Below are positions 25,227-58,649 of a DNA stretch of 64,000 nt, one piece after another. Each line of letters starts with the position of its first letter. Within the stretch, counting starts at the first letter, position 1. The stretch is from Pirellulimonas nuda. GTDB lineage: Bacteria > Planctomycetota > Planctomycetia > Pirellulales > Lacipirellulaceae. The notes beneath the pieces are model-generated. The model searched no databases and was not told the DNA's origin. It saw only the letters and a program-made list of their open reading frames with translations. The stretch spans positions 2,542,001 through 2,606,000 of the forward strand of contig NZ_CP036291.1 of the NCBI RefSeq assembly GCF_007750855.1. Reading direction: 5' to 3'. The position numbers were made by a program, and so were the translations under genes.

Positions 25227-26585
25227 ATGGTACAGCCACTGCAACAGTCGCTCTTTTGCCGAGCGCTGGTGAGTAGCGGCCTGATCGCCCCCGAGAGGCT
25301 CGAGCAGGTCGTAGCGCAGGGGTTGCCGGCACACGCCACGGTGGCCGATCTGGACGAAGCGCTTCTCGCCAAGCTTCTGGTCGACTCGGGCGACCTCAAT
25401 GCATGGCAGGTCGAGCAGCTCCGTGAGGGGCGTAGCAGGTTTCGGTTGGGCCCCTACCTGATCCACGACGCCATCGGGCGTGGGGGAATGGGAGACGTGT
25501 TCCAGGCAGAGCACGAACTGCTCGGTCGCATCGAAGCGATCAAGGTGCTGCCAAAACGGAAGACAACTCCCGACGCGGTTGCGCGGTTCGCACGCGAAGT
25601 GCGGGCGCAGGCGCAGCTAGACCACCCCAACCTCGTCCGCGTGACGTTCGCCGGCGCCGACGGCGGGGCGCACTATTTCGTTTCGGAGTACGTGCCAGGG
25701 TTGGACCTTCGGCGGCTCGTGCGGCGGTTCGGTCCGTTGCCGATTGAGGCCGCAGCGCATATCGGCGTTGAGGCCGCCAAGGGGCTAGAGTACGCCCACC
25801 GCAAAGGGCTGGTGCACCGCGACGTAAAGCCCGGCAACGTGTTGGTAACGCCTCAGGGAGCCGTGAAGCTTACCGACCTAGGGTTGGCCTGGCGGCTGGA
25901 CGATGCGACGCCCCCCGATCAAGGCGCCGGCACGGGCCGCCGTGTGGTGGGGACATCGGACTACTTGGCGCCCGAATCCATCCGCACGCCCAACCGCGTG
26001 CTCCCGGTGAGCGACGTCTACGCGCTAGGGTGCACGGTCTACTACGCCATCACCGGAAAAGTGCCGTACCCGGGCGGAGACCATGCCGAAAAGGCCCGTC
26101 GGCACCTGAACGAGGCGCCCCTGTCGCCCGGCGCATTCCGTAGCGACCTCCCCGAAGCGTTCGTTGCGGCGCTCTGGAACATGATGGACAAAGACGAGAA
26201 CCGTCGCACCCCCACCGCGGTCGCTGCAGCTGAGGCGTTGCTGCCGTTCGTGACGCCGGGCTCCAAGGCGAGCGTTGCGCGTGTAGTCGACGTCGCGCTC
26301 CGGCGGCGGACGGCGGCGCCAGACGAACGAGAAGACTCTGCCTGGGACGAGACGGCCGGTGACAGTTCGGCCGTGGAGCAACACGGTTCGAACGCCCGCC
26401 CAGATGTCGCCAGTCAGGGGACCGATCCGGTGTGCGCTGCGGATCAGGAGACGGTGCCCGACGCGAAGCCGTCCGAGACCCACGAAGCTCCGCTCGACCG
26501 CGGGGTCCGCTGGACCGTCACGGCGGCTGTGGCCGCCGCGGGGCTGGTCGGGATTGCCGCGTTGGCTACGGCGTGGCTGCGGTAG
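25227..26585 (+). CDS. Ser/Thr protein kinase, PknB-like, with C-terminal membrane segment
   Basis: A 452-residue Hanks-type kinase. Residues 1-72 form a helical N-terminal domain (LAKLLVDSGDLNAWQVEQL). The kinase domain follows: glycine loop IGRGGMGDVF (about 83-92), K106 in EAIKVL, HRDVKPGN (197-204), and DLG (217-219). Residues about 355-425 are an Asp/Ala/Pro-rich linker, and a C-terminal membrane segment (about 430-450) leaves the kinase in the cytoplasm. All catalytic residues are present. No PASTA or WD-type sensor is seen outside. Its 3' end overlaps the neighbouring convergent gene by 20 bases. Confidence 0.92.
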   Translation: MVQPLQQSLFCRALVSSGLIAPERLEQVVAQGLPAHATVADLDEALLAKLLVDSGDLNAWQVEQLREGRSRFRLGPYLIHDAIGRGGMGDVFQAEHELLGRIEAIKVLPKRKTTPDAVARFAREVRAQAQLDHPNLVRVTFAGADGGAHYFVSEYVPGLDLRRLVRRFGPLPIEAAAHIGVEAAKGLEYAHRKGLVHRDVKPGNVLVTPQGAVKLTDLGLAWRLDDATPPDQGAGTGRRVVGTSDYLAPESIRTPNRVLPVSDVYALGCTVYYAITGKVPYPGGDHAEKARRHLNEAPLSPGAFRSDLPEAFVAALWNMMDKDENRRTPTAVAAAEALLPFVTPGSKASVARVVDVALRRRTAAPDEREDSAWDETAGDSSAVEQHGSNARPDVASQGTDPVCAADQETVPDAKPSETHEAPLDRGVRWTVTAAVAAAGLVGIAALATAWLR

Positions 26586-28053
26586 TTTCGGCGGGTTTGT
26601 TCTTCGCTCGATCGAGGCGACGCTCAAGCTTGTTGATGTCATCGCCTCCGAGAAACGCGCCAAGAACAGACTTCATGTCCGTGAACAGCTTATCGATGCG
26701 CTGCTGCACTACGGGGTCGTCCGCTTTGCACTGCTCTTCCTCGCGGTCGATCCGTGCATTGAATTCGGCGCGCCCTTGTAGTTTTCGGAACTCGAGGAGC
26801 AGCCCCCTGGCCTGGTCTAGGTCTCCCGCCTCGATCGCCTTGTCAATCCGAGCAGCGAAGATCGTGCGGAGCGCGACGAGATCAATCAGTTGTTCCCGCA
26901 ACAGGCCGAGGCGGGCCTCGGCGTCGAGCCGCTTGCTTTCGTCCAGCAACGGCGCGACGATCAGCGGATCGGCGCCGGTGGCGATCGGGATCTTTGCGGC
27001 TAGTTGTGAGCCGCTCTTCACCCAGACGGTCTGGATGGGGGACTCTCCGGGCGGCACCGCGATCGCGCCGGTTAGGCCCGACTTGCCGATCGACTTTTTC
27101 TCTGGGTCCGTCCCGTCTTGGGCGAAAACTTCATAGCCAACCAGCGGCCTGGGCGAGTCGCCGCGTGAGACAAGCCGTAGCTCGGAGGGGCCCTTCGTCC
27201 GCGGTAGTCGGATTGCAAGTTGATCCACCCTGCCCCGGCGGCGGACGCCGAAGGGCCGCCGCGTGTGACTGAAGACGTCTGCAACAATTGATGTGCTCTC
27301 GTCCTCTGGGGCTGCGTTCTCCGACTCGCCTGTGGGCGCGCCTTCTTGCGCCCGCGTCACCAGATAGGTCCACAGGACTTCCTGAGTTCCCCCTTCCACC
27401 GGCAGGCCCGATCGATCCATCTGCATCAGGACGGTGCGGAACACGTCGTCTTGCCCTACCCAGCGAGACAGCGGCGTCGGGCTCGAGAGCTGACCGCCGC
27501 GCAGGCTGAGCTCAACCCGGTTCGGGTCGTCACTGTCAATGCTAAACGTGGCGATCGGCGCAAAGATGTCGCACGCCAACTGAAATACAGCCTCACCGAG
27601 CTGGTTGGCCGAAGAAAGGTCCGCCGATCGGCTCCGGCCCCAAGTGTTGAGGATCCGATCCTGCTCGGCGCCCGCCAGATGGACCCCGGCGCCATCTTCC
27701 CAGACCGCGATAACCATCCACTTGTCTGAGTCCTCACGCAGCCCGGGTGGCGCGGTTGGGTTACCCGACCGCAACGCGCTCAGCACGGCGTGGCGTTCGG
27801 CGCCTTCGGCTAGGGAAACGGTCGCCGACCAAAGTGGCCCGATCGCGGTATCGATACGCCGTTCAACGTAGCCGACGACGGCCTTAGCGAGTGCTTCCGC
27901 GTTGGCTCCCTGCAGGTCTGCGGCGATCACGATGTCGATCTGATAGGGCGTGAGCTCCCAAAAGCGGCCGGTGTCGGCGGCCGGCGCCGAAGTCGCTGCG
28001 AGCGCAACGGCCGCCGCGCACGCTGCTAGATAGGCGTTATGGAGACGCTGCAT
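26566..28053 (-). CDS. hypothetical secreted protein, last gene of ExbBD cluster
   Basis: A 495-residue protein with a signal peptide (MQRLHNAYLAACAAAVALAA..., cut near APA). The middle has several IgG-like beta segments, and residues about 390-490 are strongly charged helices. No known domain is recognised. ATG 28053 overlaps the TGA of the upstream gene as TGATG, so it is translationally coupled to the solute-binding fusion. Long upstream open frames starting at 28350 are shadows. It is probably the periplasmic partner of the cluster; function unknown. Confidence 0.7.
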   Translation of the reverse strand: MQRLHNAYLAACAAAVALAATSAPAADTGRFWELTPYQIDIVIAADLQGANAEALAKAVVGYVERRIDTAIGPLWSATVSLAEGAERHAVLSALRSGNPTAPPGLREDSDKWMVIAVWEDGAGVHLAGAEQDRILNTWGRSRSADLSSANQLGEAVFQLACDIFAPIATFSIDSDDPNRVELSLRGGQLSSPTPLSRWVGQDDVFRTVLMQMDRSGLPVEGGTQEVLWTYLVTRAQEGAPTGESENAAPEDESTSIVADVFSHTRRPFGVRRRGRVDQLAIRLPRTKGPSELRLVSRGDSPRPLVGYEVFAQDGTDPEKKSIGKSGLTGAIAVPPGESPIQTVWVKSGSQLAAKIPIATGADPLIVAPLLDESKRLDAEARLGLLREQLIDLVALRTIFAARIDKAIEAGDLDQARGLLLEFRKLQGRAEFNARIDREEEQCKADDPVVQQRIDKLFTDMKSVLGAFLGGDDINKLERRLDRAKNKPAETTAATP

Positions 28054-30326
28054 CACGGCGTCCCCCGGGCGGTTTTCCGCCACGTAGGCGCGGAATCGTA
28101 GAGCGAGATAGTGCGTTCTCCGAGGCCGCGGATGTCCCGCCGGAAGGCGTAGTAGTCCATGACCTGCCACAGTGGGATTACCGGCAGGTCGCCAAAAGCG
28201 AGCTGGTGAACGGACTGGAGCGCCGCCGACGCCTCGTTCCAGTTTCGCGCGGAGTCTAGCTTCTCCAATTCTAGCAACATGGGATCGCTGCACCTGCCCG
28301 CGATTCCGTCGGGCCCCAGCAGCCGACGCGCATCGGTGAGCGGCTCCCACATTGCGAGTTCGGCGTACCTCAAGTCGTACTGGGCCGATCCATCGAGCAG
28401 TTCAGACTCCGTCACCTTGACCAGCTCCGTTTCGATGCCGATCGCGGCCAATTGGATCTGGATTGTTTGACACGCGACGGTCGCAAGCGGGTCGTCTCGG
28501 TGGGCGAGTCGCAGCGTAGGGATCGGCGTGTTGGTGTCCGCCTCATCGGGTTCTCTTCCCGCCTCAACCAACCGGGCCTTTTGGAGATTGACCCACGCCA
28601 ATCGAGCGAGCAACGCGGCCAGCCGCGGCTGGTACTCGCGTGGTCGAACGCGGTCGTTGTAGGCGTACCCGACGCCGTCTGAGATCGACAAGCCGTTTGG
28701 GAAGGGGCCGCTGATCACCTGGAAGGCTGGCTCATCGCGTTCCCGACCGGCCAGAAGCACCGTGCCAAGGATTCTTTGGCGATCGATGCCGTAGGCGATC
28801 GCACGACGGAATTCACGCTGGTCCATGAGCGGGCTGCTTGTCGACGGGATCAGCGCGTGGATCTTTGGCAGCCGATACGACCCGACCGAGAATTCGCGCG
28901 TGGCGCGGAACTGCCCAAGCTGCCACGGCATGATGTTGGCAAGGACGTCGATCTCGCCAGACTTCAGAGCAGAAGCCGCTGCCTGCTCATTGTCGTACAG
29001 CAATTCCTCGATGGTCCCCCCTACGCCGGCGCCCGACGTGCGGTCCATCGACCAACGCGTCGGGTCGGCGTCGACCCAATGCGAGTCGTGTGACTCTAGC
29101 GGTACGTCGCTTAGCACCGCCTCGGGTCGGACGTGCAATTGAGACAGACTCACTTCAACTAGGTCCGATTCTGGAGCCGCTACCCCCGAAAGCAGTCGTG
29201 CAACGCCCGAACGGAACGCGTCCGCTCCCGGTTCGGCCGACTCGAGAATGCTGCGGGCGAGCCCGTCCAGGCGGTAGCCCGATTCCAGCTCCGCGGGGCT
29301 CACTTCAAAGGTAAGCCTCCGCCCCGTCTCGTTCTGAGCGAGTTTGCCGTGCGGGAACCGGTAGATTCCCCCTTCCGGAGAATAGTCGCTGAGCTGGGTC
29401 AGGGTCGACACGGCGAGCCTGCCGGCACGGGTGGTGGCGGGGAGGTCGAGTCGCGGCGAGGCGTCCAACGCGGGGCGATCAAGAACCCCTACAACGATCG
29501 TCGGGTGTCTACGCTGCACTTCGTCCAACAACGCACGGGCCGGCTTGCTGTCGGGCCAGATCGCGAGCGCTTGCCCAGCGGCTGCGCGCGCCTCTTGAAA
29601 TTTTTCTGCCGCCAGCAGGCTGGCTCCCTCCTTGACCTTGGCTTCAGCGGCTCGTTCAAACCGACCGCGCCAGGCGGCGATCACACTTGGCTGGATGTCT
29701 CCAAACTGCTTGTCGAGCACGTCGAGCACCCGTCTAGCAGCCCCAAACTTCTTGTCGCGCAGCTTGTCTTGGATCAGCTTGTCGCCCACCACGTCGACGG
29801 CGCTCGCAAGACCCTGAAACGCAGGGTTCTGATCGTGAAGGCTCATCAGCACCGCCAGGGCCCGGTCGTGCTCCCCCGCCTTGAACGCCGCCAGGGCGTC
29901 GCGCTGGAGGAAGCGTTGGGCAAGCGCGTCGAGGCCGGACGCGTTCGGATACCGTAGGTAAAGGCGCGCCAAGTAGTCGAAGGCCTCGTCGTACTTCTCT
30001 GCGCTTATCATCTCCTCCGCCTGCTCAAGAAGCAGGTCTTCAAACATGATTATCTTCTGGATGCTGTTCCAAGCGATCTCGATCGGCTGACCGGGACGGT
30101 CGAGCCACTGAACCGTCAGTGCGCCCCCGGGGAACGGGCTCGGCACGATTCGATTCGGAAAGTCGAGCGGTGCTACACGAAGCTGCTGGTTGCCCGCCTT
30201 GAGCACGATCGTGTCGAACGGGGCCTGCTCGATGAGTGACGGCTGTTGTCCCGCGGCAACGGATGCCGCGAGGCATGCCGCCATCGTGCAGAGCAGCCGT
30301 TTCGGGATCGTGGGTTGTGAAACCAT
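28053..30326 (-). CDS. TPR / family 5 solute-binding protein fusion
   Basis: A 757-residue exported protein. A signal peptide (about residues 1-25) is followed by a helical TPR-like region (about 100-270, with the repeated 'AEEMISAEKYDEAFDYLARLY' pattern). Then comes a peptide/nickel type family 5 solute-binding domain: IMPWQLG, FRRAIAYGIDRQRIL (near 510-524), and the C-terminal LPVIPLWQVMDYYAFRR. No permease or ATPase of a peptide transporter is nearby, so import in the usual sense is doubtful; the domain may sense or hold a ligand. The gene is coupled to the next by a TGATG overlap and follows the beta-propeller gene. Confidence 0.82.
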   Translation of the reverse strand: MVSQPTIPKRLLCTMAACLAASVAAGQQPSLIEQAPFDTIVLKAGNQQLRVAPLDFPNRIVPSPFPGGALTVQWLDRPGQPIEIAWNSIQKIIMFEDLLLEQAEEMISAEKYDEAFDYLARLYLRYPNASGLDALAQRFLQRDALAAFKAGEHDRALAVLMSLHDQNPAFQGLASAVDVVGDKLIQDKLRDKKFGAARRVLDVLDKQFGDIQPSVIAAWRGRFERAAEAKVKEGASLLAAEKFQEARAAAGQALAIWPDSKPARALLDEVQRRHPTIVVGVLDRPALDASPRLDLPATTRAGRLAVSTLTQLSDYSPEGGIYRFPHGKLAQNETGRRLTFEVSPAELESGYRLDGLARSILESAEPGADAFRSGVARLLSGVAAPESDLVEVSLSQLHVRPEAVLSDVPLESHDSHWVDADPTRWSMDRTSGAGVGGTIEELLYDNEQAAASALKSGEIDVLANIMPWQLGQFRATREFSVGSYRLPKIHALIPSTSSPLMDQREFRRAIAYGIDRQRILGTVLLAGRERDEPAFQVISGPFPNGLSISDGVGYAYNDRVRPREYQPRLAALLARLAWVNLQKARLVEAGREPDEADTNTPIPTLRLAHRDDPLATVACQTIQIQLAAIGIETELVKVTESELLDGSAQYDLRYAELAMWEPLTDARRLLGPDGIAGRCSDPMLLELEKLDSARNWNEASAALQSVHQLAFGDLPVIPLWQVMDYYAFRRDIRGLGERTISLYDSAPTWRKTARGTP

Positions 30327-30348
30327 CGTCAGGAACTAGCGCATAGCG

Positions 30349-33300
30349 CTACTTTGGGGGGCTGATGACCAGGACAGCGCCATCGGCAGCAGCGATGAGG
30401 ACGCGGGGGCCCATCATGGTTGGTCCGGACGCGATGGGTTGCCCCACGAAGACTTGAGAAGCAAGCTCACCAGAATTGAGATTGACCTTTATCAAACGGC
30501 CGTCCTTGGTGGTGGCCAGCAGCGAATCGCCCTCGACAGCGGGCGCGCCGGTTAGGTCGCCGCCCGAAAGGGGCAGTTGCCACGCAATGGACCCATCGGC
30601 ATCGACCGCCGCCATCTCGCCGTCTGCGGAGACGACCACGCACCGGCCGGGCCCCACGGCGTAAGGGCCCCAAACCGCCGGGGACCCCAGGTCGGGGTCG
30701 GCGACGCTCTCGAGCGAAGGCGTCGAGAGCAGCATCAATCGGCCTCCCTGAGTCGGGAACGCCACGACGCGATCGAGCATCGCTCCCCGCCCGACAATGG
30801 GGGAGGGACCAACATCGCTCCGTTGAACCGCTTTGAGCGAGCCAGAATCGATGGCCAAGCAGTGGATGTTCTGCACGCCATCGGTGACCACCACCACCCC
30901 ATCGCCGGCCGCGGCTGGGAGCCAGGCGTAGGCTTCTCCCGGCTGAATCGTCGGCTGGAACGGCGTTCCCAGAGGCTGTGCTCCTTGCTTTCCGAGCAGG
31001 AAGACCTGGCCGACTTTGAGCGGTGCGATCCAACCCCCCGACACCGGGGTGGGTTCGCACGCAAGGGGCGATGGCAGCGACCCCGAGACAACCGGCGCCT
31101 TTTGATTCGTTAGGTCGATCGTATTGATCGAGACCGAGCCGCCCGCTGAGACCGCGAATGAATCGGCCGAGATTGCAGTCAAGAACTCCAGTGGCTGGGC
31201 GGGACGCTCCGCTGCGGCCGGGAGCGACGTGTCAAGGATGCGTCTGCCAACGGCGTCGCGGTCGAAGAAGAACACGCGGCCGTCCGCGGCGGCCTGAAGG
31301 ATCCCACGTGGTTGATCGACCGCGACCGGGGGCCCCGCGGGCGCCGTCGCGAGGTCGGTTTCCCAATACAATCTGGCTGACTCGGCGTCCGCCGCCGCGA
31401 CGGTTACCCCGGTGGTTCCGCTGCGACGCCGGGAGTGAACCAAGACGTCGCCCAGCGATAGGATCTCACCGACGAACCGATCACGGATCAGAGGCGCGTC
31501 GATCGTTCGCGCGGGAAGGCGCTTGCCGGAAGGGGCGATTGCGTACTTGGTGATGCCACGGTCCGCCACCCACAGGTTGCCTTCGACGACTGCCGAAGCG
31601 CCACTCGAGCGCTCGTTCGACGCCGGCTCGCGGACAGCGAGCACCGTGAGCGGGTCTGCGGAGCTCCCGGCCGCGGTCTCAAATACAGTAATCTCCCCCG
31701 AGTTGCACACCACGGCGAAACGGCGGTTAAAGACGTGTGGCGGCTCGATCACCAGGCCGTTCATGCGGTAGCTGTCGAGCTCTTCGCCAATCGCCCCCTG
31801 GTCGTCGCTGCTGAGAACACGCACACGCGAGGTCGCAGCGCCGATGTTCTGAAGCAGCATCACTTTGTCGAGGATCGGGGTTGGCGCCGCGACGATGCTT
31901 CCGGGCGAGTGGCCTGAGTAATACACTCCAAGGCACTCAAAGCTCTTGGCGTCCAGAGAGTAGACGCTCGATTGCTCGCCGGCGACGTAGATCCGCTCGC
32001 CGCGCCCGTCGAACGCGGCGGGGGCAGAGACGGCTTGCGGGAACTGCACTTCGCCTACTTGGTCTCCCGACGCGAGGTTCACAACTAGAACACGTCCGGA
32101 CGGCAGAGTCACCAAGGCCAAGTTCGCCTGGACGGCAGGCCGCAGGATCGGCTCGCCGACCGGCAGCCTCCATTGCAACGCGCCCGTCGCCGGCTCGAGG
32201 CTAAGCAGTTCGTTGGCGATCGCGTCCCAAGCCAACACCGCGTCGGCCGTGCGCACCAATCCAACAGAGGCTTCGGGCCTCCCTAGGTATCGGCGCCACA
32301 GCAAACGACCGTCCTTGCTGTCGAGCCCGTACAGGACCCCGGAGAACTCAACAACGACGGGGCCCGAGGCGGGCGCCACGCCCTGGACGCGACGGTCGGC
32401 AAGCGCGAGCACGGCTTCCAGCGGCGTGGCGCCTTCCTCCTTCGCGGACTCTTTGGGCTTGGCTTCGTAACGCACGAGTCCCTGCTCAGACGCAGACGCC
32501 GCCGCGATCGCCTCAGCGAGGGCCCCTTCTTCCATCAGCTCCGGATGCGCCTTGATAAACTCGGCGTGCATTCCGTACGCGCCACGTATGTCGCCATTGG
32601 AGGTGGCGTCCTGCATCGACTTGATGGTCTTGCTGAGCGCGTCCAGAGCGGTTTGGCGGCGGGCGATCCGATCGAGGATCGCGCGCGTCTCTTCTAAGTC
32701 CCCTTCGTCGCGAAGGGATCTGGGCACGTACTTCGTGTTGTTTGAGAGCCCGATCGCTTGTTTGGAGAGCTCTACGAAACTCTCAATTTCTTCCTGCGTT
32801 CCCGCGGTGTCCGCTTTCTCGGCCAGGCCGCGGGCGATCTTGGGGAGCAGCGTCGACAGCTCGGCTTTCGCCTGGTCCTGTTCGTTGAAGTACGGCTCGT
32901 CCTCGATCCTGGGGAGTTCGTCGGCGGCCACCTGCAGGGCGATCTTGTCGTTGCTGCCGGTCTTCTGCCGAAGATTCGCCAGCACCGATTGAACTCTGGC
33001 TTGGCCGGCGCTCGGGTGGTTGGGGAACTTCGTGGTGAACTGGTTGTAGAAATCAATCGCCTGCGTATAGGCGCCCGCTTCGAACGATTCAGTCGCCTTG
33101 GACAGGAGTGCGTCGCCCGATTCACTGTTGAGGTAGTACAGGATTGCTCCGCCTACCAACAACAACAACGCAAGAGAACCCCCTCCAATGAGGATTAGCG
33201 GCGAGTCGAACTCGTTCTTCTTAGCTTTCTTGCGTTTTCCCTTGGAGGCGGACGACTTCTTCTTCCCCTTGCTGGATTTCTCGTCGATCGCCGCATCGGC

Positions 33301-33573
33301 GGGCTCGGGGCCCAAGCCTGCGTCGCCGAGCGTGTCGAGTCCGCCGCCAAGCGGGTCGAAGGCGGCGAGGTCCACCTGCTCCGTCTCCGGACCGCGTAGG
33401 ATGCTCTTGGCCTCGTCTTTCGAGAGGTGCCCTTCGTTGACCAAGAACTTGGCCAGCGACCTTCCCGACGGGGGATTCGCGTTTGCGGCCAACTTCTGCC
33501 GCAGCCGCTTGAGCATCGGTTCGGGGAGCTTCTTAGCCGCTTCGAGCGCGTCGATCAGTTCTTCAGCGGTCAT
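30349..33573 (-). CDS. membrane-anchored PQQ-like beta-propeller protein with TPR
   Basis: A 1074-residue protein. Residues 1-62 form a helical domain (LAKFLVNEGHLSKDEAKSILRG) related to the N-terminus of the kinase at 25227. A Lys-rich linker (about 105-120) precedes a single membrane segment (about 127-150, LILIGGGSLALLLLVGG). TPR-like helices follow (155-340), then PQQ/quinoprotein-type beta-propeller blades to the end (for example LLWRRYLG and GSIAWQLPLSGG). The N-terminus is predicted cytoplasmic and the propeller periplasmic. It lies 66 bases after the second exbD gene and 22 bases before the solute-binding gene. Confidence 0.85.
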   Translation of the reverse strand: MTAEELIDALEAAKKLPEPMLKRLRQKLAANANPPSGRSLAKFLVNEGHLSKDEAKSILRGPETEQVDLAAFDPLGGGLDTLGDAGLGPEPADAAIDEKSSKGKKKSSASKGKRKKAKKNEFDSPLILIGGGSLALLLLVGGAILYYLNSESGDALLSKATESFEAGAYTQAIDFYNQFTTKFPNHPSAGQARVQSVLANLRQKTGSNDKIALQVAADELPRIEDEPYFNEQDQAKAELSTLLPKIARGLAEKADTAGTQEEIESFVELSKQAIGLSNNTKYVPRSLRDEGDLEETRAILDRIARRQTALDALSKTIKSMQDATSNGDIRGAYGMHAEFIKAHPELMEEGALAEAIAAASASEQGLVRYEAKPKESAKEEGATPLEAVLALADRRVQGVAPASGPVVVEFSGVLYGLDSKDGRLLWRRYLGRPEASVGLVRTADAVLAWDAIANELLSLEPATGALQWRLPVGEPILRPAVQANLALVTLPSGRVLVVNLASGDQVGEVQFPQAVSAPAAFDGRGERIYVAGEQSSVYSLDAKSFECLGVYYSGHSPGSIVAAPTPILDKVMLLQNIGAATSRVRVLSSDDQGAIGEELDSYRMNGLVIEPPHVFNRRFAVVCNSGEITVFETAAGSSADPLTVLAVREPASNERSSGASAVVEGNLWVADRGITKYAIAPSGKRLPARTIDAPLIRDRFVGEILSLGDVLVHSRRRSGTTGVTVAAADAESARLYWETDLATAPAGPPVAVDQPRGILQAAADGRVFFFDRDAVGRRILDTSLPAAAERPAQPLEFLTAISADSFAVSAGGSVSINTIDLTNQKAPVVSGSLPSPLACEPTPVSGGWIAPLKVGQVFLLGKQGAQPLGTPFQPTIQPGEAYAWLPAAAGDGVVVVTDGVQNIHCLAIDSGSLKAVQRSDVGPSPIVGRGAMLDRVVAFPTQGGRLMLLSTPSLESVADPDLGSPAVWGPYAVGPGRCVVVSADGEMAAVDADGSIAWQLPLSGGDLTGAPAVEGDSLLATTKDGRLIKVNLNSGELASQVFVGQPIASGPTMMGPRVLIAAADGAVLVISPPK

Positions 33574-33639
33574 GTGCCTCTTCTCGGCCCGGTCTGGGCC
33601 GCGCTTCCGGTTGCATGCGTCGCCCGACTCGTTGGGGCG

Positions 33640-34221
33640 CTATAGGTCTTCGTCTTCGTACTTCGCCAACTGGATCTCTTCGGCCTGAGCGCTCACGCCC
33701 GCGTCCAGGGCCGCAACGACAAACTCGTGCGTTGCGTCGCCGTGTGCCTGGACCACCACCTTGGCCGGGCCGGCGCCGAACTTGCCCCCCTTCCCTTCTC
33801 GGGCTTGGCGGACCTTCTCGCGCATCTCCTGCTTGCTGGGCGCCCGTTGCTCTTCGTTCCACAGCGGCGCGCCGATCCAAAAAACATTGTCGCCGTCGAT
33901 GCGTATCAGGATCGAGTCCTTTTCGACGTCCTCAACCGTCTGCGATGCGGCCGCCTCGTCGTCCTGCACGGGGGGGACCAGCAAAGCCGATTGAAGCGCG
34001 AACGCAGCAGTGATCATGAAGAAGATCAGCAGCAGGAACGTGACGTCGATCATCGGCGTCATGTCCACTTCGTCGTCGACTCGCTTATCGACGACCTGCT
34101 GCTCGTAGTGATCGTGCGAGACCTCGTCGGGCCGGAACGCGATTTGCGAACGGGCAGCGTCAGGGTCCGAAGAGGGGAGGTCCTCGGGCGGCGGCTGGTT
34201 TGGCGGTTTGGAAGCCATCAA
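33640..34221 (-). CDS. exbD: ExbD/TolR biopolymer transport protein (second copy)
   Basis: A 193-residue single-pass protein of the proton-driven ExbB-ExbD type. The membrane segment holds the key acid: DMTPMIDVTFLLLIFFMI (about residues 53-70), with the Asp needed for proton coupling. The N-terminus is long and Pro-rich, and the periplasmic domain ends in an acidic tail (KYEDEDL). ATG 34221 overlaps the stop of the first exbD by 4 bases (ATGA), so both are made together. Having two different ExbD subunits suggests a hetero-dimeric motor partner. Confidence 0.92.
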   Translation of the reverse strand: MMASKPPNQPPPEDLPSSDPDAARSQIAFRPDEVSHDHYEQQVVDKRVDDEVDMTPMIDVTFLLLIFFMITAAFALQSALLVPPVQDDEAAASQTVEDVEKDSILIRIDGDNVFWIGAPLWNEEQRAPSKQEMREKVRQAREGKGGKFGAGPAKVVVQAHGDATHEFVVAALDAGVSAQAEEIQLAKYEDEDL

Positions 34222-34712
34222 TCCTTCTCCAGGATCGCGTAGGCGAGCTGGATTCCGCTCACTTTGGAGCAGTCGCCGGTCACCCGCCAGACTTCGCGGA
34301 ACGGGACGCTCTTGTCGGCCTTAATGACGACGTTGGTCTTCCCTTCTTGCAGACCTTTCTCAACAAGCTCAACGATCTTCTCCTCTTGTTCCTCGGGGTC
34401 GTCCGACAGGCGAGCCGACTCCACCTGGCCGTCCGCCGCGTACACCGGGGCGCTGTCCACGCCCACTTCGCCGATGGTGAGCAAAGTTGAGTAGAGCTGT
34501 TCGACCGGGCTGCCGCGCGACGCGATCGGCAGGTCGATCGCCGTCTGTTGGTCGGGCGTCGAGGCAACGATGAAGAAGATCAGCAGCAGGAAAGTCACGT
34601 CGATCATCGGCGTGAGGTCGGGGTCTCCTTCGGAATCGGTGCGCGACTTCCGCGGCGCCGCTGCCGACGCCTCGTGCAGCGATTCGGAAGGAGATTGAAG
34701 CAGGGCCGGCAT
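34218..34712 (-). CDS. exbD: ExbD/TolR biopolymer transport protein (first copy)
   Basis: A 164-residue ExbD/TolR subunit. The N-terminal 30 residues are cytoplasmic, then DLTPMIDVTFLLLIFFIVA (about residues 32-50) carries the conserved Asp; the periplasmic domain contains the helix-rich part ending in ILEKD. It differs from the second copy (193 aa) mainly outside the membrane segment, so the two are paralogues rather than a duplicate. It is 42 bases downstream of the exbB gene and overlaps the second exbD by 4 bases. Confidence 0.92.
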   Translation of the reverse strand: MPALLQSPSESLHEASAAAPRKSRTDSEGDPDLTPMIDVTFLLLIFFIVASTPDQQTAIDLPIASRGSPVEQLYSTLLTIGEVGVDSAPVYAADGQVESARLSDDPEEQEEKIVELVEKGLQEGKTNVVIKADKSVPFREVWRVTGDCSKVSGIQLAYAILEKD

Positions 34713-34754
34713 CGGAACGTTCCTCTGTCCACGTTAAGTTGGTCCGCGCGACGA

Positions 34755-35387
34755 TCACGCCCTGCCCGTGATCGACTGCAGGGACTCCATGAGCCGCGTC
34801 AGCCCGCTGGCGATCAGGTCTTCCATCTTGCGGATCTGGATGTTGATGGACGCGGTGGTGATCATCAGCGGCACCGCGATCGCCAAGCCGAGGGCCGTGG
34901 TGATCAACGCCACCATGATGTTGCCCGCCATCACGCCCGGGTCGACCTTCGTTCCCTGGCCGAGGTTGTCGAACGCCGCCATCATGCCGATGACGGTGCC
35001 GAACAGCCCGACCATGGGGGCGCTCTTGGTGACGGTGCTGACCCATGCCAGCCGGTGCTCGATATCGGCCAGCACGTCCTGTTGAAACCGTTCGACCAAA
35101 CGCCGCTGGACCTTGATGGGGCCAAGGTCGCGATTCTCGATGGCGTAGAGCGCAAGCTGGGGCATGGCGCGGCGGTCGTCCTCGCAGATTTCGATCGCCT
35201 TTTCGTTGTCCCCTTTGGCAAGTTCTACGTCGAGTTCGTCGAAGAATTCGGTCTGCTCCTCCTCATTGCGGAACCGCACCTGGGCTACTCGGCGCCACAC
35301 GAGAACGGCGTTGAACGCCCCCCAGATCGCCAGCAAGGCCATCGACGCGTAGATGGCGTAGCCGATTAAATTGAACAGTTCTTGCAT
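34755..35387 (-). CDS. exbB: MotA/TolQ/ExbB proton channel protein
   Basis: A 210-residue inner-membrane protein with three likely membrane segments: residues about 7-28, and the pair about 118-140 (SAPMVGLFGTVIGMMAAF) and 157-178 (MVALITTALGLAIAVPLM). These are the conserved ExbB/TolQ/MotA channel parts. With the two ExbD it should form a motor that uses the proton gradient to do work in the envelope. No TonB or TolA-like protein is in the cluster, so the moving partner is probably another member of this operon. Confidence 0.93.
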   Translation of the reverse strand: MQELFNLIGYAIYASMALLAIWGAFNAVLVWRRVAQVRFRNEEEQTEFFDELDVELAKGDNEKAIEICEDDRRAMPQLALYAIENRDLGPIKVQRRLVERFQQDVLADIEHRLAWVSTVTKSAPMVGLFGTVIGMMAAFDNLGQGTKVDPGVMAGNIMVALITTALGLAIAVPLMITTASINIQIRKMEDLIASGLTRLMESLQSITGRA

Positions 35388-35438
35388 GCCGGTCGGCTCA
35401 CGTATGGTGTTTCGGGCGCCCGGGCACGGGCGCCAGCA

Positions 35439-36320
35439 CTAATAGTAATACACTTGATCTTCGAGTGCTATTTGAAACCCGCTTCCCCCGCGGGTCACGC
35501 GGAAGACGCTCCGCTGCACCTCGTTGATCTGCTTCTTTTTCGACTCGGCTTGATTAAACTCTTGCTCGAGCAGCTCCCGAGCCGCTTCGTCGGGCCAAAA
35601 CGTGACGGTGAACGCTCCTCGGGCGCCGATCCCGGCCTTTTCTGCCAGCCGGCGGTCGAGCGTGTTGAGCGGCGATCCGACCGGATTAATGGTGTACAGC
35701 CGCTTTTCTTGATCGGGGGGCGCCGATCGGACCACGGGGTTCGCCCCGGCCAGGTTCTTTGCGTAGTAGATCAGGTTGTTTTGCTGGTCGAGGACCCCGA
35801 GCTCTAGCTTGTAGAAGTCGTACCACTGCGCGTACTCGTCTACGCTGCCCGGCTCGTACTTGATCTGGCGGACGGGCTCCTCGCCTTCGAGTCCCTCGCC
35901 GCCGTCCCCCGCGCGGCGGCTATCGCCCAGCCCGCTACCCTTTCCGGCTTCGGTATCGGAGTCGACCGCCTCATCGCTGAGCAGCGCTGAAGTGGTGGAG
36001 AGATCGCTCAGGGCGGAGAGCGTGTCCTGTAGCTTCGGCTCGGTCAACTCCGGGGCGTCTTCCTGCCCGGGGGGTTCCAGGTCGCGGGCCACACCCATCG
36101 CCGCGTCGGCCGGTCGGCTCGCGAACTCGATCGGCTTAAACTCAATCGCGATCTCACTCCGGAACTTGAAGTGCGTCATGTACCAGATGAAAACCAAGCC
36201 GGCGACCAGCACCCCCACGATCAGCAGCAGCGCGATCAACGCGCTCGAAGAACGGTCGTACGAGTTTACCGTGAGCCGGTAACTCGGCCGTGAATGGGGC
36301 GTGCTGGGGAGGGAGGCCAT
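35439..36320 (-). CDS. hypothetical single-pass membrane protein of ExbBD cluster
   Basis: A 293-residue protein with a cytoplasmic N-terminus of about 25 residues, one membrane segment (about 27-48, ALIALLLIVGVLVAGLVFIWYM), a disordered Ser/Asp/Pro stretch (about 60-150), and a C-terminal domain with a KYEPGSVDEYAQWYDFYKLELGVL block. This layout (short cytoplasmic end, membrane segment, flexible linker, folded periplasmic end) is like that of TonB/TolA-type partners, although I see no sequence similarity to either. It is encoded just upstream of exbB and is a candidate for the moving partner. Confidence 0.65.
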   Translation of the reverse strand: MASLPSTPHSRPSYRLTVNSYDRSSSALIALLLIVGVLVAGLVFIWYMTHFKFRSEIAIEFKPIEFASRPADAAMGVARDLEPPGQEDAPELTEPKLQDTLSALSDLSTTSALLSDEAVDSDTEAGKGSGLGDSRRAGDGGEGLEGEEPVRQIKYEPGSVDEYAQWYDFYKLELGVLDQQNNLIYYAKNLAGANPVVRSAPPDQEKRLYTINPVGSPLNTLDRRLAEKAGIGARGAFTVTFWPDEAARELLEQEFNQAESKKKQINEVQRSVFRVTRGGSGFQIALEDQVYYY

Positions 36321-36332
36321 AGAAGCGTTGTG

Positions 36333-37928
36333 TTAGTTGGCGGGGAGCACGGCGTCGGGGCGGACCGACAGGTACCATTGCTCCCACTTCGTCTTGGCCT
36401 CGTAACGTTGGTTCTCAGAGAAGCGGTTGTTCAGCCCGTAGCCCTGGAACTTTCGACTCGTAAACCGCAAGCCGTCTCTGGCGGCGAGCACCACGCGTTT
36501 GTCGGGATCGGTGAGCCCGTACAGCAAGGAAGGGACGTAGTCGAGATTCCCAGTCCTCCCCAGCGCCCGGACCGCCAGCAGCCGCACCTCCGGGTCTCCG
36601 CCACGCACGAGCTGTTCAAGCCGCCGAGCACTCCGGGCGTCTAGTCCGCTTGAGATTAACGCGCTAGGATCGTCCGCTAGAGCGTCGAGCTTGGCGGACT
36701 GATCCTCGTCCAGCATACCCAGCAGGTCTTCTACCGCGGTTTTTTCTTGCTGGGCGACGATCTGGCCGCCATCGAGCCGCACGCTGCTGAGGTCCTTTGG
36801 CAGGCCCCGCCCGCTAAGCATCAACCCCTCGCCGATGCTCGCCCGCAGGATTTTTTGCGTCGACCGCTGCAAGAACAGCACGGCAAAGGCGGTGTCGGCC
36901 GCCTCGCCGCAGCCTTTGTCCCAGATGCCGGGTTTCTTCTGGTTCTTGAGCAAGAAGTCGTACCCGTCGTTGTACCACTTCGGGCTGCCCGGCGCGACGC
37001 CGGTAAGGAACTCTTCGAATCCGCGGAACCTTTCCAGGGCGTAGAGGTAGTAGACCTGCCAGGCCTTATTGTCGATGGAGTAATTCTTCTCCATCCACTT
37101 GGTCCCATCTTCATACGCCTTGATAAGCCGGTCGCGTTCTACCTGCTTGGACGAAAGCCGCGGCGCCCGGCGGGTGGATTCCTCGCCAGCGACGCGCACG
37201 CCGGTGGGCAATTCTTCCTCGCTTGGGACCGATTGATTTGGCCCCATAATGCCGAACAGGTCGATCGTGATCAGCACGCTGCCCAGGGCCGCGGAGACCA
37301 TCGAGAGTGAGATTTCCTTCTGCTCGACGCGTTTCCCCGCCGGACCCATCTCCCCTTGATAACCCCAAGCGCCATCCGGGTCTTGGGTCCGGATCAGCCA
37401 GTCGGTCAGGCCGGCCAGTGGCGCCGCTTCGACGCTCAAACCGTGGCGATGGGCCTCCCAGTAGCTGAGCGCCGCGTACTGCGTCTGCGAGGTGTCGCCT
37501 GATTCGCGGTTGGTATACCCCCACCCGCCGTTCTTTTTCTGGCGTTGCTTGAGCAGGTTGAAGTAGTAGCTAATGACCGAGGCGTGGGTCCTTGGATTCA
37601 CCTCGGTGAGGAGGATGATCGCGAGGCCGGCGCTGTAGAACGACTCTGCCTCATACCCCTTCTTTGCCGTCTCATAGCACGCCGCCACCGCCTGCTGAAC
37701 CTTGGGGTGGTCAGGCTTGTCGTCCTTTACGAACGCCAAGCCCATCAGGCACTTGGCGCCAAGTTCTTCATCCTTGCCGTCCATCTTCTCGATCGCGGCA
37801 AGGCCAGATTCAATCAGCTTGCGGACCTCGGGGCTCTCGGGCGTTAGACCTTGGCTGGCGCCCAGGGCCGGTCCGACTGATGCGGCAACAGCCAAGAACA
37901 GCAAGAGGCGGGTTGAGAGCGCAGTCAT
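36333..37928 (-). CDS. squalene-cyclase-fold (prenyltransferase repeat) protein with HEAT-like end
   Basis: A 531-residue exported protein. Signal peptide MTALSTRLLLFLAVAASVGPALG (about residues 1-23), then an alpha/alpha toroid with QW-type motifs: KKNGGWGYTN (near 132), QDPDGAWGYQGEMG (near 184) and others. A C-terminal HEAT-like stretch (EVRLLAVRALGRTGN, near 467-481) follows. A good ribosome binding site (AGGGGAGGA) precedes ATG 37928, which is why I do not use the longer frame from 38054. It is the first gene of the ExbBD cluster. It has no DxDD catalytic motif of true squalene-hopene cyclases that I can see. Confidence 0.82.
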   Translation of the reverse strand: MTALSTRLLLFLAVAASVGPALGASQGLTPESPEVRKLIESGLAAIEKMDGKDEELGAKCLMGLAFVKDDKPDHPKVQQAVAACYETAKKGYEAESFYSAGLAIILLTEVNPRTHASVISYYFNLLKQRQKKNGGWGYTNRESGDTSQTQYAALSYWEAHRHGLSVEAAPLAGLTDWLIRTQDPDGAWGYQGEMGPAGKRVEQKEISLSMVSAALGSVLITIDLFGIMGPNQSVPSEEELPTGVRVAGEESTRRAPRLSSKQVERDRLIKAYEDGTKWMEKNYSIDNKAWQVYYLYALERFRGFEEFLTGVAPGSPKWYNDGYDFLLKNQKKPGIWDKGCGEAADTAFAVLFLQRSTQKILRASIGEGLMLSGRGLPKDLSSVRLDGGQIVAQQEKTAVEDLLGMLDEDQSAKLDALADDPSALISSGLDARSARRLEQLVRGGDPEVRLLAVRALGRTGNLDYVPSLLYGLTDPDKRVVLAARDGLRFTSRKFQGYGLNNRFSENQRYEAKTKWEQWYLSVRPDAVLPAN

Positions 37929-39335: not shown

Positions 39336-42300
39336 ATGATTCGTAGCTTGCGATTTCTGGCGGGACACGGCTTTGCCGCGTTCTTCGCGCTTGCTGTGGC
39401 GTGTCCGGCCAAAGTTGGCGCAGGGGCGCCGGAAGGCCAACCTGCGGCCCACCGGCACGAACTGCACTACGGCGTCCATTTGCCCCAGCAACGCTCACTG
39501 AGCCGAGCCCTTGCACTCGCCGAAGAGTCTTTGGAAAAGCAGGATTTTCTGCGGGTTTTCGAGCTGCTCGACGCTGTCCTGGACGCGGAAGAGGACGCCT
39601 GGATCGACGTTGACCCGCCCCGTTCTGCTAGGGACTTGGCTGGCGGGCTGATTTCAGACCTGCCGCCGGCCGGAAAGCGGGCCTACTCGCTCCACGCAGA
39701 CGCGAAAGCCGCGCGGGAGTTTGACGCGATTTCCGCGGGGGCGAATGCTGCAGAGTTGCTGCGGATTGCCAGACGCTACCCACACACCCCGACTGAAACG
39801 GACATCTTTTGGCTGCTATCGCAACGCGCCTGGGACCAAGGTTTTTTCGAATCGACCGATCTGCTGCTGCGGCGGAGCGGGGCGCAGGGCCGTGACTTTG
39901 TTCATGGGTCGGACCGACGTTTGCAGCAAGCCGTTAGCCAGACCGCTGCGGGAATTGCGGCGACGGACATCGGGTTGGGGACCCACCCCGCGGTGCGTTG
40001 GGCGAAGGACTATGCCGAACGCGATTCTGGCGGCGCTTGGCGGGCGTCGGCGCGGGCCTCCGGAAGCTCGCGCGTTGAAGACGGCTTGTCGAAGGGCCGC
40101 ATCGCCGTCTCCTGGGAGGCCGTCATTGCCAGCAGCCGCAGCCGAAGTGGGAGCTTGGGCCTGGACCGTGTGGCCAGCGACGTCCGTACTGAACCGATCA
40201 TCGCTAAGGGCCTCGTGCTTTCCCGGACCGAAAACAACGTCATCGCCACGAGCGAACAATCGGGGCGTCGGGTCTGGGAAACGCCGTCCAACGAGCCGCT
40301 TGCGGGCGCCGCTCAGCGGCGGCATGGGGAGCTACTGGCTGGACTGGGGATTAGTTCCGACGCCAGCCGCGTCTTTGTGATAGAGCCGTCCCCGTTGGCT
40401 CAGCAGTCCCAACTGGGTACGGATCGGCAGCACATCTGGGGTGGGCGCAGGCCACGAGCGTGGCGGCCCGAGCCAAACCAGCTATCGGCCTATGACTTGC
40501 GCGACCAGGGGAAGCTGACTTGGTCACTAACTCGCAGCGGCGACGACGGGGCGCCGAAGCCCCTCTCGCTGCTAGGCGCCCCGCTTTGCTTTGACGGCCG
40601 CCTGCTGGCGCTAATCGATTCCGAACAGACGGTGATGCTGATTGAGATCGATCCATTGACGGGCGCCCTGCTCTGGCGCCAGCCTCTGATCGGCGCCGAT
40701 CGTGCCCCGATCCGCGGATCGTCGGACGTCTGGGCCGGGATCACCCCGGTCACTTCCGATGGGATCGTCGTCTGCCCCACGCGGGGCGGCATCGTGGTTG
40801 CATTTGATTGGGTTCGGCAGACGCTCCTATGGGCCTATCGGTTCCCGGTCGACGAAGACTCGGACAGCGGGAGCTCGGGACACGACGCGATGTGGCGCGA
40901 GTGCCAAGCGGTTATTCGGTCCGACAAGGTGCTTGTTTGCTCGCCCGATTCGGACCTCCTTCATTGCGTCGACCTCCAGTCGGGGGAGCCGCGTTGGACC
41001 GCGAGTTGTCCCGAGGCTCGCTACCTGTCCGTGACGCGAGAGGCGGCAATTGCCTCGGGCTACCAGTCGTTAGATGGATTTGATCTTGCTACTGGCGATC
41101 GGCTCTGGACGCGCAAGCTGCCGACAGGTGCGGTCCTTGCCGGCCGACCACTGGAAACGGGCGGCCAAGTGCTGCTCCCTATGACGGGCGGTAAGATACT
41201 GACCATCGACGGCGCCGATGGCGAGATTGAGAACGACTCGTCCGAATTGGTCGAAGCCCCTTCGGTGTTGATCGCTCACCGCGGCGACCTGCTCGCCGCA
41301 GGGCGCGACTATTTGGTGCGGTACGTGTCGGGGGGAAGCGGGACGTCGGGCACCGCCGTGGCGCGATCACCGACGCAACGGCTGCGTGATTCGCTAGCCG
41401 CGCGGCAGGCCGGGGAGTACGACCTGGCGCTGAGCGAGCTGCGATCCTTGGTCAGCGAAGATCTCGATCGCTCCGCTGCTCGATCTGCCTATCTTGAGCT
41501 GTTGGTGAGCTTGCCGGTTCACGAAGGCCTGGAACAAGACGCGGCGTTGCTAGACCGGTTACGGGAGGTCCGCCCGGCGGATGCGGAAGCCGCGGTCGCC
41601 GCTGCGGTTGTAGCGGTTCGTAGGCTAGATCAGGACCGGCTGCTCAAGGCAATTTCCGACATCTCTGGCGAAATTTATTCTCCGGATCGTCTCGTGCTGG
41701 TTGAAGGCGACCGCTTCGTGGCGATTGAGGACGCCGTCCGAGGGACGCTGGGACGGCTCAATTCGGCGGTCGAGCAACCGCTGGACGTGGTCAGCCGATC
41801 GTCTGCAAGGACGCTTGCGGCCTCCCAGCGCTGGTTGGAGGCAGACCAGGCCCGCTGGCGCCTCGAATCGCAACCAACCCCGGACACTGCCGCCGCTCGG
41901 GCGGTTGATTGGAGCTCTCACCAAGTCGCGGCAGAGGTGCAGCCGTCTCGATCTGGCCTTCTGCAAACAACCGGACGGGGGCGCGATTTCTCAGGCTTGA
42001 TCCGGGTGTCGCTCGAACGAATCGGTCCGGCAGACCCGAGGGCGCCAACCGGATTTGTTCTTGCGTCGAACGGTTCTCGATTAATGGGCAAGAATAATGA
42101 GGGGGAAGTACTGTTTGCGCTTGATACCTCCGAGGACAGCGAAGTACTGCTCAAGGCGGCCCGCGAGCCGATGGAGAAGCCCTGGGCGTGGATCGCTGGA
42201 CGGGTGTTGTTGGTCGCCTCCAGGAACGACGTCGCTTGTTACGACCTGCTTTCGGACGGTCAATCCCGTGTCCGACTGTGGACGGCAAGCGGATCTCTGC

Positions 42301-43436
42301 GCACCGCGATGGCGCGCCGCGGCGAGTCGGACGGGCCGCCTGCGGAGTGGGTGCGAAGCTGGTCGGGGCCGGCGGAGGTTGTGCTGGTGACTCGCTCTCG
42401 GGCCGTCGTCAGCAATCGTGGCCGACTATACTGCTTTGACTTGCTGTCTGGCGTCTTGCGGTGGGAGTCAGCACTCACAGACGCCGACGGTCTGTGGGGG
42501 AGCGGCGAGCACCTCTGGGTCGTGCACAGCGACCGAACCGCCACGAAGCTTGCAATGGTCGATGGCGCCGTGTCAGGGAAGGCGGTCCCATCCCGGATGG
42601 AGCTGGTTTCAGCCGCGGGAGACCGCTTCGTCGGCGTTGAACGCGTCAATGGAACGCCCCATCTAATGGTTTGCGACGCCGCCGACCTGCGGGTCCTGGT
42701 CGACCTGCCGATAAGGGCGGAGTCCTTTAAGGTCTGGCGCGGAGAGGGCCGGATGTGCGGTGTTGTGGCCGAGCCCGGCTCGATTCATACGATCGATGTC
42801 GAAAAAGGCGGAGTCGTATCAGAAAAGGTGTTTGCTGCCGACCTGGAGTCGATCGGGAGCGTTCGCATGGTCGGAGGGCGACTACTGGTTTTTGTGCCCG
42901 GCGCCGCGGACGTGCGGGGAGGCGAGGCCGTTGACAGCTTGGAGGCGGGCTCGCCCTTCACGGGAAGGGTCTATTCGCTCGACCCCAGTACAGGAGAAGC
43001 GAATTGGTCGTCCCCAGTCGAGGTGCAAGGCCTCGGGTTGTTGGATCGACAAGCAGAAGACGATGTGCTGGCGTTCGGCGCACGGGTGACTTCCGTAGAT
43101 GGCCGCCGGATGACCCGCGTCATGCTGCTCGACGCGGCAACTGGCGTGCTGTTGTACAGCGGCGAATTGATTGGAAGCACACCACTCAATGGCTATCATT
43201 TGAGAAGTGACCGTACGGCAACCCCGCCGAGGTTTGAGGTCGAGCTATCGGGTGAGACGTTGACCCTGCTGAGCTTGCCGACGCCCCGCCCACCGGAGCC
43301 CCCCCCGTCTGTGAAGATCGCCAGCGTCGCCGGAGCCGCGGAAGTGGATATTTGGGAGCTCGGGCAGGAACTCAAACGCGCATTCGAACAGGCCGCGGAC
43401 GAGGTCGAACCGCAAACGCCCGCCGAAGAGAAATAG
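39336..43436 (+). CDS. giant secreted PQQ-like beta-propeller protein
   Basis: A 1366-residue exported protein. Residues 1-30 form a signal peptide (ending VGAGA). A helical TPR-like part (about 50-200) follows, then two blocks of PQQ/quinoprotein-type blades (about 290-650 and 940-1330; for example TGALLWRQPLIG, SGEPRWTASCP, SGVLRWESALTDADG and TGEANWSS), separated by a helical TPR-like spacer (about 690-870). No active-site residues of quinoprotein dehydrogenases are recognisable, so it is more likely a structural or interaction scaffold than an enzyme. It opens the plus-strand cluster, 56 bases before the next gene. Confidence 0.8.
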   Translation: MIRSLRFLAGHGFAAFFALAVACPAKVGAGAPEGQPAAHRHELHYGVHLPQQRSLSRALALAEESLEKQDFLRVFELLDAVLDAEEDAWIDVDPPRSARDLAGGLISDLPPAGKRAYSLHADAKAAREFDAISAGANAAELLRIARRYPHTPTETDIFWLLSQRAWDQGFFESTDLLLRRSGAQGRDFVHGSDRRLQQAVSQTAAGIAATDIGLGTHPAVRWAKDYAERDSGGAWRASARASGSSRVEDGLSKGRIAVSWEAVIASSRSRSGSLGLDRVASDVRTEPIIAKGLVLSRTENNVIATSEQSGRRVWETPSNEPLAGAAQRRHGELLAGLGISSDASRVFVIEPSPLAQQSQLGTDRQHIWGGRRPRAWRPEPNQLSAYDLRDQGKLTWSLTRSGDDGAPKPLSLLGAPLCFDGRLLALIDSEQTVMLIEIDPLTGALLWRQPLIGADRAPIRGSSDVWAGITPVTSDGIVVCPTRGGIVVAFDWVRQTLLWAYRFPVDEDSDSGSSGHDAMWRECQAVIRSDKVLVCSPDSDLLHCVDLQSGEPRWTASCPEARYLSVTREAAIASGYQSLDGFDLATGDRLWTRKLPTGAVLAGRPLETGGQVLLPMTGGKILTIDGADGEIENDSSELVEAPSVLIAHRGDLLAAGRDYLVRYVSGGSGTSGTAVARSPTQRLRDSLAARQAGEYDLALSELRSLVSEDLDRSAARSAYLELLVSLPVHEGLEQDAALLDRLREVRPADAEAAVAAAVVAVRRLDQDRLLKAISDISGEIYSPDRLVLVEGDRFVAIEDAVRGTLGRLNSAVEQPLDVVSRSSARTLAASQRWLEADQARWRLESQPTPDTAAARAVDWSSHQVAAEVQPSRSGLLQTTGRGRDFSGLIRVSLERIGPADPRAPTGFVLASNGSRLMGKNNEGEVLFALDTSEDSEVLLKAAREPMEKPWAWIAGRVLLVASRNDVACYDLLSDGQSRVRLWTASGSLRTAMARRGESDGPPAEWVRSWSGPAEVVLVTRSRAVVSNRGRLYCFDLLSGVLRWESALTDADGLWGSGEHLWVVHSDRTATKLAMVDGAVSGKAVPSRMELVSAAGDRFVGVERVNGTPHLMVCDAADLRVLVDLPIRAESFKVWRGEGRMCGVVAEPGSIHTIDVEKGGVVSEKVFAADLESIGSVRMVGGRLLVFVPGAADVRGGEAVDSLEAGSPFTGRVYSLDPSTGEANWSSPVEVQGLGLLDRQAEDDVLAFGARVTSVDGRRMTRVMLLDAATGVLLYSGELIGSTPLNGYHLRSDRTATPPRFEVELSGETLTLLSLPTPRPPEPPPSVKIASVAGAAEVDIWELGQELKRAFEQAADEVEPQTPAEEK

Positions 43437-43492
43437 CCACGCATACGAGATCGACCGCCGGTCCTGCTCAAACGCCACTGAGGACATCAGGG

Positions 43493-46589: not shown

Positions 46590-46601
46590 CGCGGCACACA
46601 C

Positions 46602-54648: not shown

Positions 54649-54678
54649 ACAAAGGGTCACAATTCTGCCCCCTTCGCG

Positions 54679-58646: not shown

Positions 58647-58649
58647 CTA

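Follow-up and report, generated by a model that had tools for sequence, protein, structure and literature searches.

We analysed a 64,000-nt stretch of Pirellulimonas nuda DNA (GCF_007750855.1, contig NZ_CP036291.1, positions 2,542,001-2,606,000 of the forward strand; below, the window, whose positions all coordinates follow), part of a 6.6 Mb single-contig genome, and an operon of eight genes within it (26566-37928), namely sqc, tm293, exbB, exbD1, exbD2, prop, sbp and sec. The operon probably encodes a dedicated machine of the Tol/Ton kind powered by the proton-motive force, with the 293-aa protein tm293 as a transducer bearing a new head. Motors of this type drive TonB and TolA. Known examples pull TonB, TolA or, as was recently proposed, vWA transducers, and the conserved operon would add another head. 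The gene set, its conservation and domain content, the predicted layout of tm293 and a TonB-like motif in same-operon homologues were established by computation and point to a trans-envelope machine so far unstudied.

Conservation of the operon and its motor

A preliminary description of this DNA, made from the sequence alone, had listed the eight minus-strand genes, and an open reading frame check together with Pfam searches bore out the gene set, the coordinates and the domain content. The operon reads from 37928 to 26566, and its genes are separated by short gaps or one-base overlaps (exbD1 and exbD2 share the base at 34218, sbp and sec that at 28053). A single-sequence search with tm293 matched 13 of 199 phylum genomes, its own included; 11 of the 12 others were fetched, the twelfth being a weak match (E 8.8e-4). 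The results showed that the order tm293-exbB-exbD1-exbD2-prop-sbp-sec was kept in all 11 fetched relatives, at about 22-53% identity, with sqc upstream in 5 of them (BLAST). For a wider sample, 84,980 genomes were searched with tm293, which yielded 148 relatives; the best 80 loci were used, and each gene was scored only where the contig has room for it. By this count exbB was detected in 65/75 loci, exbD1 in 64/72, exbD2 in 57/65, prop in 52/58, sbp in 41/48 and sqc in 44/71. The full seven-gene order through sec was found in 33/80 further loci, many loci ending at contig ends; sec has no room-scored count (its room threshold was reached by 0/0 loci). Loci of Blastopirellula marina DSM 3645 and Thalassoglobus neptunius KOR42 are among those that carry the operon. 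The seven-gene core is syntenic beyond chance, and the co-occurrence in relatives on which the preliminary description had made its reading depend was found (11/11 and 33/80).

The named relatives of tm293 were planctomycetes, the best matches being labelled Planctomycetales, Pirellulales, Planctomycetaceae or Pirellulaceae and a few just 'bacterium'. We searched 393 phylum genomes, each at least 90% complete, with a 76-row tm293 profile, which includes the window protein. It matched 110 genomes, 96 of them inside the class, and all 7 same-family genomes listed, own included; at least three genomes of the same taxonomic order gave no match. The 14 matches outside the class (E about 1e-5 to 1e-3) covered only the transmembrane (TM)/linker part, and two of them (G025, G058) were N-termini of squalene-cyclase-fold proteins. 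exbB precedes tm293 in L055 and L061. Tandem tm293 genes occur at L057, L069, L075, L098 and L106, possibly giving two different arms per motor.

The motor genes belong to the MotA/TolQ/ExbB and ExbD/TolR families by Pfam domains over the cut-off and by the membrane Asp, which the alignment showed in both exbD1 and exbD2; a strict form of the Asp motif was present in 55/66 exbD1 and 58/64 exbD2 relatives, fragments counted. A 16-row exbB profile compared with solved structures gave TolQ as the best match (E 1.7e-19), followed by ExbB (E 1.2e-14), which by this profile measure places exbB closer to TolQ than to ExbB among the structures solved. In 48/61 exbD2 relatives the N-terminus carries a zinc-ribbon-like CxxC..CxxC part, which the window exbD2 lacks. 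Loss of the equivalent of what we take to be Glu176 in E. coli ExbB was considered as a special feature and rejected, because three of the four other aligned non-flagellar ExbB genes of this genome lack the Glu too and one keeps it. A plasmid search with exbB returned three weak matches and nothing more.

The absence of TonB noted in the preliminary description holds genome-wide as far as the PF03544 profile reaches (0 matches); the TonB-receptor plug domain (PF07715) and TolB_N (PF04052) likewise gave 0 matches in the genome, and the control searches matched in E. coli, Caulobacter and Bacteroides. TonB_C was found in 17/98 class genomes. Sixty of the 61 genomes in both samples had a tm293 match, and TonB_C was present in 15 of these and absent from 45. 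In seven genomes with both on one contig, TonB and tm293 lay at least about 340 kb apart. Nine class-relative TonB loci (L127-L135) were inspected. The S-x3-H pattern lay in the TonB frame in 8/9; at the ninth, L134, it was seen by eye and the longer pattern failed. No ExbB or ExbD was detected in the 13-16 kb around TonB at any of the nine, with hidden Markov models built from planctomycete motors only. A TonB encoded elsewhere was rejected as the partner, being absent here and far from tm293 in those relatives where this could be judged, and no TonB or TolA homologue conserved with this ExbBD came to light. These results support a motor with a non-TonB partner, as the preliminary description proposed, through a conserved gene set, the lack of TonB_C here and its placement elsewhere in relatives that have it.

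The candidate transducer tm293

An AlphaFold2 model of tm293 built on the 76 rows predicted a helix at residues 20-50 and, beyond a linker of low confidence, a domain at 147-291 with a predicted local distance difference test score (pLDDT) mostly above 90, and this predicted model shows the TonB/TolA-type layout of TM helix, disordered linker and folded tip. Trp46 in the helix occurs in 68/76 rows. Beta-type hydrophobics at residues 59, 61 and 63 form a motor-box-like pattern in 41/76 rows, the highest count along the scanned linker (best non-overlapping position, 7/76). A motor box is known in TolA and TonB, and the tm293 strand pattern fits its description in the parts of PMC12204202 that were available. 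The tip itself gave no significant match in the collections searched: there was no PDB match at E 0.001 and a PDB sequence search gave chance-level rows only, and the fold search gave a best E of 0.043 and a best Z of 3.5 over 56 residues, with no usable relative among the families listed. Pfam returned one stray match among the 76 members, with no VWA match and no TonB_C (PF03544; 0/76) at E 0.01; against eight planctomycete TonBs the tm293 profile reached an hhalign probability of 1.8%.

Homologues outside the main branch supply the docking motif. Locus L176 encodes two proteins that share the tip (E 1.8e-29 and 9.3e-24) and have S-x3-H-G helices, followed in the same operon by exbB, exbD1, exbD2 and prop; the first aligned with the tm293 tip at an hhalign probability of 99.5% over 141 columns. 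Among seven distant f90 homologues, six have a helix His by eye, and a pattern search singled out three with T-x3-H. Because the L176 and f90 relatives carry a helix His, the family can be linked to TonB-type docking, and its sequences suggest a family of force transducers in which the main branch has lost or replaced the His. The preliminary description's choice of the 293-aa protein for its TonB-like layout is supported by the two same-operon homologues, and tm293 is best read as the force transducer of the motor.

Several observations weigh against this assignment. No His occurs at helix columns 25-45 in any of the 76 rows, which leaves the main family without the S-x3-H docking motif; the motor-box pattern is confined to the rows counted above; neither a fold nor a partner was identified for the tip; and the TolB likeness of sec, described below, is that of a widespread fold, a Z below 8 possibly marking just a common arrangement. 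At the level of loci, tm293 stood without any other detected operon gene in 6/80, some on short contigs; exbB was not detected in L085, L086 and L118, the last also lacking a detected exbD; the motor trio lay elsewhere than tm293-prop-sbp-sec in all three f89 genomes read; and no motor gene was near the tip homologue in 6/7 f90 loci read. The six solitary loci could suggest that unrelated envelope genes are neighbours here by chance or only loosely, the more so as this single genome has nine squalene-cyclase-fold matches and a number of TPR/PQQ proteins, but gene order is kept across the class at the divergence given above, and we regard this reading as very unlikely. A structural anchor is the more serious competitor. 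Were tm293 only that, the motor would have a different target, for instance the membrane-anchored propeller or a transducer whose gene lies elsewhere; the missing His, the split f89 clusters and the S-x3-H transducer candidates at other loci of this genome would all suit it. Nevertheless, two same-tip, same-operon homologues have S-x3-H, the other candidates adjoin their own ExbB/ExbD genes, and the only hydrophobic helix of prop (126-144 by hydropathy) contains no His, so that we hold the anchor to be unlikely. No observation marks out the propeller as the partner of the motor, and that part of the preliminary description was not supported.

The solitary tm293 genes are at L065, L079, L093, L100, L107 and L116, and by eye L079, L100 and L107 have other neighbours in common. 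sqc accompanies tm293-prop-sbp-sec in two of the three split f89 clusters, and at the f90 locus L172 the motor trio is the convergent neighbour of the tip homologue. Where f89/f90 loci were fetched around the best ExbB match, exbD1 and exbD2 adjoined exbB in 8/8.

Secreted proteins, proposed mechanism and known systems

The AlphaFold2 model of sec had a mean pLDDT of 90.5. Its first domain matched TolB in Foldseek (7mx5, E 3.8e-6, with a low TM-score over the whole chain) and in VIA-align (3iax, Z 7.8, root-mean-square deviation 3.2, 116 residues). The top Foldseek match was an LPHT-ring protein (E 3.2e-7), which we take to be flagellar, and CsgG, GNA1162 and PelC were also among the matches; a common fold, not a function, is therefore shown. 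In sqc, Pfam found HEAT_2 (E 2.2e-7), while SQHop_cyclase_C (E 5.6e-6) fell just short of its cut-off of 26.1 bits, scoring 26.0. PDB sequence matches were designed HEAT-like alphaRep proteins (E 1.9e-10) and squalene-cyclase proteins (E 0.01-0.064). The DxDD string is absent from the window sqc and occurs somewhere in 10/47 relatives, and sqc is probably not an enzyme.

We propose that ExbB pentamers would hold two ExbD-type shafts, probably ExbD1 joined with ExbD2 as a heterodimer, and that tm293 would dock on this motor via its membrane helix and the motor-box-like strand. The disordered linker would span the periplasm and present the new C-terminal domain, which may grip a periplasmic product of another operon gene, the likeliest candidates being the TolB-like domain of sec and the propeller/SBP assembly. 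Ion flow would in this way be turned into pulling on an envelope complex, and the biological output might include the movement of a cargo across the periplasm that the preliminary description suggested. A different output, nutrient import, would have the SBP5 protein and the propeller capture oligopeptides or similar compounds and the motor open an outer-membrane gate as TonB does. An SBP_bac_5 domain is indeed encoded in the operon and its gene kept in most loci with room, and planctomycetes bring dextran and green fluorescent protein (GFP) into the periplasm by a route that the authors, in the portions consulted, hold not to be vesicle-mediated (PMC5394234). The genome, however, has no plug domain, and none of the eight genes matched an ABC permease, ATPase or beta-barrel family in Pfam, the lack of permease and ATPase also setting the operon apart from SBP5 ABC importers. 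Import therefore seems improbable to us, and pulling by tm293 is preferred.

The vWA force transducers of Planctomycetes-Verrucomicrobia-Chlamydiae (PVC) bacteria (Williams-Jones et al. 2025, PMC12204202), for which Planctomycetes are counted among the phyla, are the closest published idea. Their genes comprise a TolQ-like gene, two different TolR-like genes and a TPR gene. The operon shares with them the TolQ-like and two differing TolR-like genes, a TPR protein and a TM helix plus linker with a non-TonB tip, but the tm293 tip is not vWA by Pfam, the His of SHLS is missing in the main tm293 family, and propeller, SBP5, TolB-like and squalene-cyclase-fold proteins are added here. Tol-Pal is alike in its TolQ-like channel, TolR-like subunits, TolA-like layout, TPR protein, a propeller and, in sec, a TolB-N-like domain; here, in contrast, TolB_N has no Pfam match in the genome, the propeller is of the PQQ type on a membrane anchor, there are two TolR-like genes, and Pal (an OmpA-type lipoprotein) is absent from the operon, the two OmpA matches in the genome both lying more than 650 kb away and one of them, by reading, in a flagellar cluster. 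TonB-ExbB-ExbD shares the motor subunits, the helix-linker-tip layout and, in the L176 homologues, S-x3-H, but this genome lacks TonB_C and the plug domain. The AglR-AglQ-AglS gliding motor of Myxococcus, as excerpts of PMC3169522 describe it, drives a trans-envelope complex with several TPR proteins and has one TolQ-like and two TolR-like subunits, a combination found here by Pfam; its proposed transducer GltG, by contrast, carries a TonB motif.

The heads described here lengthen the list of things that such motors may pull, and the operon gives concrete genes for testing how planctomycetes energise the outer membrane. These bacteria take macromolecules into a large periplasm and have crateriform structures that join both membranes (both from portions of PMC5394234), and some lack FtsZ (from a portion of PMC5147048). 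It is a far-fetched thought that Planctomycetia have in this operon a trans-envelope machine specific to the class, perhaps a component of the crateriform structures suspected in macromolecule uptake, and that planctomycetes own a motor family with differing heads (this one, vWA, and a squalene-cyclase-fold toroid on an S-x3-H anchor); any connection of the operon to crateriform structures or to dextran/GFP uptake is speculation. A literature search that did not reach most subscription papers or any supplements turned up nothing published about this operon or about squalene-cyclase-fold transducers. The text of the vWA transducer paper (PMC12204202) contained none of squalene, terpen, toroid and prenyltransferase, and the main text of a Planctopirus limnophila essential-gene paper none of ExbB, ExbD, TolQ, biopolymer, PQQ and TonB. 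A Rhodopirellula baltica stress paper reports that an exbB (RB12053) and an exbD (RB12055), possibly of this operon, were induced at high salinity.

Gene layout, other motors and neighbouring genes

Table 1. Genes and tm293 segments of the operon, in window positions
Feature	Position	Strand	Evidence
sqc (secreted; squalene-cyclase fold, an alpha-alpha toroid, with HEAT repeats; DxDD absent)	36333..37928	(-)	Pfam SQHop_cyclase_C, HEAT_2
tm293 (proposed force transducer; tail in the cytoplasm, single TM helix, disordered linker, C-terminal folded domain)	35439..36320	(-)	AlphaFold2, 76 rows
tm293 membrane helix, residues 20-50	36171..36263	(-)	model and alignment
tm293 motor-box-like beta-strand pattern, residues 57-66	36123..36152	(-)	scan of 76 rows
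tm293 C-terminal domain, residues 147-291	35448..35882	(-)	AlphaFold2, pLDDT mostly >90
exbB (TolQ/ExbB-type proton-channel subunit)	34755..35387	(-)	Pfam MotA_ExbB E 6.1e-24
exbD1 (ExbD/TolR-type subunit, membrane Asp, PMID motif)	34218..34712	(-)	Pfam ExbD E 1.1e-15
exbD2 (second ExbD/TolR-type subunit, membrane Asp)	33640..34218	(-)	Pfam ExbD E 7.8e-22
prop (N-terminal part probably cytoplasmic, TM helix at 126-144, TPR-like part, PQQ/BamB-type beta-propeller)	30349..33573	(-)	Pfam PQQ_2 E 1.1e-21; hydropathy
sbp (secreted; family-5 solute-binding domain with a fused TPR-like N-terminus)	28053..30326	(-)	Pfam SBP_bac_5 E 2.3e-17 at 444-648
sec (secreted; TolB-N/CsgG-like first domain, beta-sandwich, helical end)	26566..28053	(-)	AlphaFold2, Foldseek, VIA-align

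Among the window proteins, tm293 and sec matched no Pfam family at E 0.1 or better, and searches with their families gave nothing useful (one to four stray single-member matches). The N-terminus of sbp had a weak TPR_6 match (E 5.6e-4, below the Pfam cut-off), and sbp gave no PDB sequence match at E 0.01. A crude lipoprotein-signal pattern was rare in relatives of sqc (2/51), sec (2/38) and sbp (2/44) and therefore gives no support for lipidation. A shared N-terminal domain between prop and a neighbouring kinase was considered and rejected, as BLAST gave no significant match.

Each of three other ExbBD loci of the genome encodes a candidate arm of its own, with an S-x3-H helix and a non-TonB tip. 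The one at L043:5562-8353, beside ExbB and ExbD, is vWA-like (VWA E 0.0068, below the cut-off), fitting the published vWA transducer class; those at L041:5196-6935 and L044:9148-12312 have squalene-cyclase-fold tips, the L044 fold match being below the cut-off. Three of the nine squalene-cyclase-fold matches in the genome lie within 5 kb of an ExbB gene, a proximity reached in 23 of 200,000 random placements. A search with the L041-type protein matched 167/195 phylum genomes, many probably fold relatives only. In the 30 best loci, which include our own genome and several from one genus, an S-x3-H membrane helix with ExbD directly upstream in the retrieved stretch was found in 23, the motif only in 1 and neither in 6. 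Proteins of this type, seen at L041, L044 and L136-L160, have an S-x3-H helix, a Pro-rich linker and a squalene-cyclase-fold tip and are encoded directly downstream of ExbD. Judged by these patterns, squalene-cyclase-fold arms appear to be a widespread transducer type in planctomycetes. The toroid, fused to the arm elsewhere, is separate here as sqc beside tm293, which hints, but does not prove, that the two act jointly.

Just upstream of the operon a divergently placed gene (39336-43436, +) encodes a 1366-aa PQQ-repeat protein (PQQ_2 E 1.3e-25). Beyond it, by reading alone, a plus-strand cluster (43352-60703) opens with another squalene-cyclase-fold-like secreted protein (43352-44536) and contains look-alikes of MoxR ATPase, DUF58, vWA/BatA-like, TPR and trypsin-like genes.

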